This document shows, piece after piece, positions 8,066 through 9,533 of a stretch of 64,000 bases of DNA; within the stretch, counting starts at the first letter, position 1, and every line of letters starts with the position of its first letter. The position numbers were made by a program, and so were the translations under genes. The DNA is from Chryseobacterium sp. C-71 (GTDB taxonomy: Bacteria > Bacteroidota > Bacteroidia > Flavobacteriales > Weeksellaceae), in assembly GCF_020911865.1 (NCBI RefSeq), contig NZ_CP087131.1:2728001-2792000 (forward strand), given 5' to 3'. Below the pieces are notes generated by a model. The model was not told where the DNA came from and did not search any database. It was given only the letters and a program-made list of their open reading frames with translations.

Positions 8066-8245
8066 ATTGAATATTTATTTTAATTGAATCTGTCGCAATT
8101 TTATGTGAAATGTTGCATTAAGATTAATGGAAAATATATTTAAAATTGAATCTGAGACAAATTTAAAACAAAACTGATACATCTCAGAAAATTTATGAGT
8201 CTTCACTTTAAATAAGAAATAAAAAGGTAATGTGGTCAAAGATAG

Positions 8246-8280
8246 TTGGTGTTTTTCACAAAAATAATTCGTAATATTTG
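8246..8280 (+). promoter_or_regulatory. Promoter of the candidate small RNA
   Basis: TTG at 8246-8248 is followed after 23 bases by TAATATTTG at 8272-8280. This is close to the flavobacterial pattern TTG-N17-23-TAnnTTTG, with one extra base inside the -7 box. It predicts transcription starting at about 8284, exactly where the first RNA stem begins. Confidence 0.5.
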
Positions 8281-8283
8281 ACG

Positions 8284-8387
8284 GTTGATTGGAAGAGGAA
8301 ATGAGCAATGCTGAGGAGCAACTCATCAGCAATACAATCAACGCTGTAAACAATAGTTTAGAGGATGGCTTTTGCCATCCTTTTTTT
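8284..8387 (+). ncRNA. Candidate small structured RNA, possibly 6S-like (6S-Flavo)
   Basis: This stretch of about 104 bases has no convincing ORF but has ordered structure. GTTGATTG (8284-8291) pairs perfectly with CAATCAAC (8335-8342). Inside lie a purine-rich strand of 9 bases and an opposite strand of 8 that form an internal bubble. Within the bubble sits an apical hairpin, ATGAG/CTCAT (8301-8305 with 8322-8326) plus TGCT/AGCA. A strong terminator follows. A closing stem, open bubble and apical stem is the layout of 6S RNA, which mimics an open promoter and binds RNA polymerase. Rfam has a Flavobacteria-specific 6S-Flavo family, but the match is inferred here from shape and not tested. Confidence 0.5.
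8363..8387 (+). terminator. Intrinsic terminator of the candidate small RNA
   Basis: GGATGGC pairs with GCCATCC around a TTTT loop and is followed by seven T residues. No plus-strand protein gene lies upstream for several kilobases, so it implies a non-coding transcript. Confidence 0.85.
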
Positions 8388-8399
8388 GCAAATTATTGG

Positions 8400-8407
8400 A
8401 ACAGCTC
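8400..8407. repeat. Left copy of an 8-base direct repeat flanking the IS remnant
   Basis: AACAGCTC here is repeated at 9510-9517, on either side of the transposase remnant. IS256-family insertions duplicate 8-9 bases of target. Terminal inverted repeats are not clear just inside, so the assignment is tentative. Confidence 0.4.
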
Positions 8408-8424
8408 TATGGCTTAAAAAACCT

Positions 8425-9481
8425 TTACGACTTTAGATTTTTATAAAAAAGATACTATTGGATAAACTTTTTTCTTCGACTTTTGGTAAGTCCCCGATGA
8501 ATATTGAGATGACCTTTCAGATGACCGAAAAAAGACTCTATGCCGTTTGTTGTTTTCGGAATTTTAGAATTTTGCAGGAACGTAAACATATTGGGTAAAG
8601 CCTTTCTGATAACCGAAAAACATCTTCTTACCATCTTGTGCGTGTACCAATATCTTCCGGTTTCCTGGCTGTATGATTTTTCATTCAAAAAATCTTTATC
8701 TTTCTCAGACCAATCCAAAAATTCTTTGATCAAATACTGCTTTTTAGCTTCATTGTCAATAAAATGAATCTTGCAGACTATTTCACGTAACTCAAAACCC
8801 GCTGCAGACTTTGGATAAGCTGAAAGCCATATTTTGCACATTCTCTGAATATGCACCAAACATCTCTGAACAGGAACTTTCGGGCAGACTTTTCGGATGG
8901 CTTTCAGTAGAGATTTGTCGCCATCGCAGGTTATCCCGCCTATTTTTATTCTTAAATTCAGAATGTTTTCCAAATCCTCTTTCAATTCTTCATAATGCTC
9001 TCCGTCAGTAATTCTGTAAAGTTGGGTTTGCTTAAAAACATTGTCTCTATAAACCACCAGACAGATCATTTGAGAAATAAGTGCCGTCAATCAGCAAATA
9101 AGCCTCCTTGTTCTGGCTGTAATTGAGTTTTGGCGCTTTGCTAAGCATCACATTAAAATACCGCTGAAGAGTACTTACCGAATACCCTGATTCTGCGGAA
9201 ATCTGCTCATAAGTCTGTTTACCGACAATCCATTTTCTAAACCAAATTTCTTTGTTTTTTAGGCTCACAGATTTATTTTCTGAAGTAAAACAAATGCCGC
9301 AATTTTTACATTTAAAACGACGCTTACCATTTTGCTTTCCCCAAGAAATCACATCCAGACTTTCGCAACTCCAACAACGATTTTTTTTGAATTTCCAGCC
9401 ATAAAAAAAGTTTATTGAAACAAAGTTCAATAAACTTTCTAAATCATCAGTAACAATCGGCAATACAAAGAATTTTACCAA
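8425..9481 (-). pseudogene. Degenerate IS256-like (IS1249-type) transposase
   Basis: Two frames together make one DDE transposase. The 5' part (9481-9047, TTG start) carries a zinc ribbon with CWSC and CKNC and a helix-turn-helix region, and ends LLIDGTYF with the first catalytic Asp. The rest (to 8455) carries GGITCDGDKSLLKAI with the second Asp, an RCLVHIQRMCKIW segment, and TTNGIESFFGHLK with the catalytic Glu. A frame change near 9060-9080 is needed to join them; restoring a lost CT dinucleotide would give DLCLVVYRDN. The end also looks cut: TAG at 8455-8457 is followed in frame by YLFYKNLKS to a stop at 8425, so TGG probably mutated to TAG. Both lesions make activity unlikely. Confidence 0.8.
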
Positions 9482-9506
9482 CTATTTTTGACTATTAAAC
9501 CAATAA

Positions 9507-9533
9507 AAAAACAGCTCCAAAAGAAGCTGTTCT
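9507..9533 (-). terminator. Intrinsic terminator after the DUF4293 gene
   Basis: On the minus strand AACAGC pairs with GCTGTT around a short loop and is followed by TTTTTT. It lies 25 bases past the DUF4293 stop. The T-tract is at the edge of the IS remnant. Confidence 0.75.
9510..9517. repeat. Right copy of the 8-base direct repeat flanking the IS remnant
   Basis: This second AACAGCTC matches 8400-8407 and falls inside the DUF4293 terminator hairpin. The insertion may therefore have landed in that hairpin. Confidence 0.4.

Follow-up and report, generated by a model that had tools for sequence, protein, structure and literature searches.

Evidence for a conserved, mobile-element-borne structured RNA with two pseudoknots in Bacteroidota

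The structure found at the left end of an insertion sequence in Chryseobacterium sp. C-71 is almost certainly a conserved, structured RNA that is borne by mobile elements. It lies in a stretch of 64,000 nucleotides that was analysed as a whole (the window; positions below are counted from its first letter). Set against the Rfam models and the literature that we searched, the structure likely represents a new mobile-element-borne RNA family that was previously undescribed. The explanation that best accounts for the data overall is a passenger noncoding-RNA gene of about 141 nt with its own promoter, whose product would act in trans via a host component; we regard this explanation as evenly balanced between right and wrong, and its functional part is put forward more tentatively, as rather less likely than not.

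The initial annotation of this region described a stand-alone small RNA with a 6S-like shape, and the structural parts that it listed are present where it placed them. These are a promoter-like TTG at 8246–8248, followed after 23 nt by TAATATTTG at 8272–8280; a closing stem (8284–8291 with 8335–8342); a bubble, that is, the internal loop 8292–8300/8327–8334; an apical hairpin at 8301–8326; and a 7-bp hairpin (8363–8369/8374–8380) followed by T7. The fold of positions 8280–8388 has a free energy of −36.1 kcal/mol (z = −4.36), and none of 200 shuffled sequences folded equally well. The boundaries had to be redrawn. The remnant of an insertion sequence that had been placed about 20 bases downstream is in fact an insertion sequence with intact ends, the left one at 8226, so that the promoter, the stems, and the hairpin all lie within it. 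The hairpin and T7 had been read as the 3′ end of the RNA, but a conserved tail reaching to about 8424 pairs back with the core, and since both pseudoknots need this tail behind the hairpin, the RNA would not end there. What is left of the original proposal is a structured, conserved RNA-like element whose stems covary and which has a promoter-like box. The 6S identity was not supported, and neither was the stand-alone character: the element forms part of an insertion sequence and turns up on other transposons as well. The coordinates of all features are given in Table 1.

Table 1. Features of the RNA copy in the window and of the insertion sequence that holds it
Feature	Position	Strand	Details and basis
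Predicted promoter of the RNA	8246..8280	+	TTG 8246–8248 (inside the terminal repeat), TAATATTTG 8272–8280; TAnnTTTG at the same place before P1 across the family
Predicted noncoding RNA, about 141 nt	8284..8424	+	Start predicted from the −7 box; end placed at the last base of the pseudoknots
Core	8284..8342	+	P1 8284–8291/8335–8342, P2 8301–8305/8322–8326, P3 8309–8312/8317–8320; covariation
J1/2 internal-loop strand, conserved AAGAGGA (8293–8299)	8292..8300	+	Alignment A1
P3 loop GAGG; AGG 8314–8316 is the 5′ strand of pseudoknot 2	8313..8316	+	Tail/loop co-variation
J2/1 AGCAATA, 5′ strand of pseudoknot 1	8328..8334	+	Tail/loop co-variation
P4 long hairpin, 8343–8347/8401–8405 and 8351–8359/8390–8398; terminator-like tip 8363–8380	8343..8405	+	Folds of 38 copies
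TATGGCT, 3′ strand of pseudoknot 1 (a single mismatch is conserved)	8408..8414	+	Tail/loop co-variation
CCT, 3′ strand of pseudoknot 2	8422..8424	+	Tail/loop co-variation
Insertion sequence holding the RNA (IS256-type, zinc-binding variant), 1276 bp, ends GGTAATG.../...TTAAACC	8226..9501	.	Terminal inverted repeat, duplication
Target-site duplication AATAAAAA (8 bp), left copy	8218..8225	.	
Target-site duplication AATAAAAA (8 bp), right copy	9502..9509	.	
Transposase gene, broken into two frames (9047–9481, 8455–9090)	8455..9481	−	ORFs; 3′ end faces the RNA

The RNA and the transposase gene lie on opposite strands, the RNA filling the gap that separates the 3′ end of this gene from the left terminal repeat. 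The termini of the element, GGTAATGTGGTCAAAG... and ...TTTTTGACTATTAAACC, are inverted repeats of each other, and 12 of the 45 related loci tested have these ends together with an exact 8-bp duplication. With the NCBIfam model NF048019 (IS256 family, variant Zn-binding type), the two pieces of the window transposase score 129.2 and 57.8 bits, each below the cut-off of 150, and the 281-aa ORF of relative L003 scores 176 bits. The two frames in the window overlap at 9047–9090; relatives such as L020 have one open frame. A terminator-like hairpin, AAAGTTTATTGAA/TTCAATAAACTTT, stands at 9407–9438 directly before the transposase start and also occurs in related copies. In 31 of 32 IS256-variant copies (window 9370–9440 on the minus strand, L050–L096), the ATG that follows this leader hairpin does not share the reading frame of the transposase, and a run of 6–10 A stands between the two; frame slippage at the start of the transposase gene is likely in these copies.

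The initial annotation had proposed that the stems be checked for covariation in relatives, and they do covary. In an alignment of 38 copies covering helices P1, P2, and P3 (17 pairs, 642 cells), 97.0% of the helix cells are paired, and both sides change in 13 of the 17 pairs. Double-change cells number 151; shuffling gave 44.5 on average and never reached 151 in 500 rounds, and sliding the partner columns by one to three positions leaves at most 43.9% of cells paired. Judged by this covariation, the three stacked helices P1–P2–P3 are a real conserved core fold. The alignment contains 33 G-U cells and 5 A-C cells, an excess that speaks for the plus strand of the window as the folded strand; taken alone, this test would also allow folded single-stranded DNA. 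Behind the core, the long hairpin P4 appeared in all 38 copies when each was folded singly, with a lower part that differs in some of them (L058, L091).

Further copies were found with two models of the 59-nt core, R1 and R2. The window core scores 84.2 bits with R1, a value that is not independent because R1 was built with the window copy included. Behind the core, the tails read TATGGCTAANAAAACCT and variants of it, with the conserved form TATGGCT...ACCT. Pseudoknot 1 joins the tail with the internal loop and pseudoknot 2 joins it with the apical loop, and the strands change together: AGC in J2/1 goes with GGCT in the tail, AGG with CCT, and AGT with ACT, while the P3 loop GAGG goes with CCT at the tail end, GGAG with CTC, and GGGG with CCC. 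The loop–tail combinations of the second pseudoknot were found in both core types. A core of P1–P2–P3 with two pseudoknots to a 3′ tail is the arrangement that defines the new family.

The pairing rule is followed by 77 of 79 copies for pseudoknot 1 and by 74 of 79 for pseudoknot 2. Because the search pattern fixed several letters of both strands of pseudoknot 1, only one of its positions is an independent test. At this free position, 75 distinct cores carry C-G (40), G-C (31), U-A (2), or no pair (2), so that 73 of 75 are Watson–Crick, compared with a mean of 35.1 and a maximum of 51 in shuffles that ignore descent. For pseudoknot 2, 70 of 75 distinct cores fit (shuffle mean 38.3, maximum 51, descent again ignored). 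Before this count, 73 of 152 copies had been excluded: 44 in which the search pattern found no tail, 20 in which J2/1 was not recognised, 8 that lacked the anchor, and 1 repeat. The first 44 comprise 17 that end at a contig boundary and 27 that are full-length. Some of the full-length rows have a tail with an inserted base, and no tail is visible in the full-length copies L108, L124, L170, L176, L178, L181, and L189. By eye, several excluded rows back the pairing: L204 has one extra base on both strands, the conserved mismatch has become a pair in L200, and both pseudoknot strands are changed in L183 and L202.

We also considered the tail ATGGCTAAGAAAACC as a start codon (reading MAKKT...). 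This was rejected, because many copies, among them the window, L050, and L062, have a stop right after ATG GCT, and because the tail varies together with the core loops. A search of the window's own genome for a copy at the start of a gene, made with the tail pattern and one mismatch allowed, gave eight places, of which only that in the window is the RNA; the reversed control also gave eight.

TAnnTTTG is the −7 box consensus of Bacteroidota. All six of its fixed letters are present in 29 of 137 stretches before the core; the same was true of 1.6% of the shuffles and, farther upstream, of 14 among 411 windows. Among the best sites scoring 5 or 6, 74 of 90 begin 10–12 nt before P1. On the basis of this motif, the RNA is predicted to be transcribed from its own promoter.

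The RNA travels with its element. A 155-bp stretch of the window was found at unrelated sites in a search of 59 genomes. From public genomes, we collected 47 loci related to the transposase and examined 42 of them behind the transposase (L076, L078, L079, L094, and L095 were left out); the end of the insertion sequence is visible in 40 of the 42, and the RNA is present in all 40. Within the genus, the RNA adjoins 24 of 25 long transposase matches (E ≤ 1e-90), and the sole match without it, on contig 27 of genome G029, is partial. It also stands beside all six full-length IS481 relatives (at least 93% identity). Two genomes contain mini-elements, L098 and L099, of 389 and 391 bp, which have no transposase gene and retain both ends, the leader hairpin, and the whole RNA; they are flanked by the exact 8-bp duplications CCAGTACG and GATTTTTT, respectively.

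R1 matched 33 of the 173 genomes searched in the genus and, in a phylum sample, 10 of 395; R2 matched 63 of 395 genomes of a class sample and 6 of 296 of a second phylum sample, these samples overlapping. Single genomes hold up to 10 and 11 copies, often at contig ends. Most genomes have no copy (in the genus, 140 of 173), which indicates that the host does not need the RNA, and a host gene for it was not found, weak matches such as L134 resembling worn copies. Plasmids gave no match for the element of the window and one 29-base match to an IS481 end. For the core of the RepL copy, short unannotated plasmid matches were seen in NZ_CP120686.1 (4755–4797, Tunicatimonas) and NZ_CP095055.1 (3752–3788, Hymenobacter). 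Phages gave no match, and three scans of viral contigs gave one contig only, L140. This IMG/VR contig holds an IS110 element with the RNA next to terminase-like and DNA-binding-like reading frames.

The carriers belong to several families. Among 146 distinct copies, they are IS256-variant (55), IS3 (18), IS481 (13), IS110 (5), RepL (2), and IS30 (1), and 52 copies have no carrier gene within 700 nt, 19 of these ending at a contig boundary (in the raw count, 58 of 152 copies have no recognised carrier gene within this distance, 54 being listed as none). L139, which has a canonical IS256 carrier, appears in the raw count; the distinct-copy count treats it as one with a cut copy of identical sequence. 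Family names come from representatives scored with NCBIfam, or with Pfam for RepL, and L164 was named by its likeness to the Pfam-named RepL. It should be noted that the sample is uneven: the first loci were fetched via the IS256-variant transposase, and 60 places were picked by hand from the class-sample matches. Gene and RNA overlap in some loci: in IS481 copies such as L109 the end of the gene reaches into the RNA, and in L122 and the RepL locus L133 the RNA reaches into the end of the coding sequence. The RNA reads inward in some elements and outward in others; a generic search for ends over the other elements gave a convincing pair only for L135. IS256-variant, IS481, and IS110 carriers each include both core types, so the RNA seems to have moved from one kind of carrier to another.

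Conserved loops together with freely changing helices suit an RNA that binds or acts better than they suit a mere terminator. In the explanation that we prefer, the RNA would be transcribed from its own predicted promoter and would act in trans by binding a host component. The effect would be to adjust the expression or movement of the element, or its cost to the host. The transposases of the carriers differ in chemistry and have the RNA on either strand, while its loops stay the same, so the partner would be a host factor common to all carriers. We think it slightly better than an even bet that the RNA forms a new class, a compact double-pseudoknot RNA gene passed between IS256-type, IS3/IS481-type, and IS110-type transposons and plasmid replicons as a shared passenger that works with, or against, a single host machine common to them. 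Exact base changes for testing can be read off the invariant loops and both pseudoknots, and there are copies in growable species.

The strongest competitor, though an unlikely one, is a transcript-end or insulator module, in which transcripts would stop at the hairpin and T-run, on the 3′ edge of the transposase gene, with no separate RNA at work. It is in line with the position of the RNA at the 3′ side of the carrier gene in 92 of 94 distinct copies and with the frequent occurrence of a hairpin with a T-run. A terminator could do without conserved loops, a promoter box of its own, and pseudoknots, however; 72 of 94 copies lie on the strand opposite to the transposase gene, and some hairpins, such as that of L096, have no T-run.

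Two further readings are somewhat less probable still, and to the same degree. One is a scaffold or guide RNA working with the carrier's own recombinase, like bridge RNA or omega RNA. Mobile elements do use such RNAs, and some carriers are IS110, the recombinase of which is termed RNA-guided by NCBIfam. Against it, one and the same core is found beside DDE-type enzymes, DEDD-type enzymes, and RepL genes, a pattern that does not fit a fixed partnership with one family, and the direction of reading differs among elements; none of the genes met beside the copies was recognised as TnpB or IscB. The other is a self-cleaving or otherwise catalytic RNA that processes the transcripts of the element, for which the compact double-pseudoknot fold and the invariant loop letters speak. 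Here, the fixed distance of the promoter box from P1 is the main objection, since it makes P1 the 5′ end without cleavage, and no known ribozyme family of Rfam was matched.

It is very improbable that the RNA is a trans-acting antisense RNA against the transposase mRNA, like RNA-OUT. In the window, 12 of 13 bases of 8325–8337 are found again, in direct orientation, at 9456–9468 on the transposase leader strand, so the RNA could pair with the leader. The Flavobacterium and Algoriphagus copies that were read by eye do not preserve this match, however, and P1 and pseudoknot 1 already use the pairing strand. We therefore rejected an antisense role that is seen in the window and not kept in distant copies.

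The least credible reading is 6S RNA or a 6S mimic binding RNA polymerase: despite the stem-bubble-stem outline of the window fold, the search that the initial annotation had suggested with the Rfam model 6S-Flavo (RF01685) gave no match at the gathering score, nor at E values up to 5 between 7000 and 10000, and the genome has a separate 6S candidate, so that this identity was rejected. That candidate, at C1:4202515–4202619 (L019:1501–1605), is the only 6S-Flavo match of the genome (47.3 bits, E = 4e-6, below the gathering score of 85), and the same locus also scores 31.8 bits with Bacteroidales-1, a suggested 6S.

More broadly, no Rfam family matches the element of the window or the scanned relatives at the place where the RNA lies, motifs that have no Rfam model being outside this comparison. 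A weak match to the Rfam DUF805 RNA (37.9 bits, cut-off 51.1) was seen at L186:182–235, away from the new RNA. Literature searches, which covered neither subscription papers nor preprints, found no paper describing the RNA, nor any description of an RNA in the IS256 family, variant Zn-binding type. Two candidate RNA motifs, 'Transposase-resistance' and 'GUCCY-hairpin', appear in a listing in PMC2864571, the one named after transposases and the other from Bacteroidetes; they enter here by that listing alone, outside the model comparison.

Comparison with described systems places the RNA apart from each of them. Like 6S-Flavo RNA, it is a short Bacteroidota RNA with a stem-bubble-stem outline; unlike it, it is carried by transposons, has no sequence or model match to it, and closes two pseudoknots with its tail, and to our knowledge, two pseudoknots and such a tail are not part of 6S RNA. 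With the IS256 family, variant Zn-binding type (NF048019), the carrier in the window shares transposase relatives, ends, and 8-bp duplications. The regulatory RNAs RNA-OUT of IS10 and Art200 of IS200, which pair with the transposase mRNA of their own element, are small RNA genes of insertion sequences as well, whereas in the new RNA the complementarity to the transposase leader is not conserved. Guide RNAs borne by insertion sequences, the bridge or seek RNA of IS110/IS1111 and the omega RNA of IS200/IS605 and IS607, are also structured noncoding RNAs within an insertion sequence, each going with one enzyme family. The new RNA differs from them: several transposase families have it in common, it lies on either strand, and no nuclease was recognised with it. 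The insertion-sequence RNAs that we know of each belong to one enzyme family; one RNA fold across several transposase families points to a need common to the mobile DNA of Bacteroidota that is independent of the chemistry of movement.
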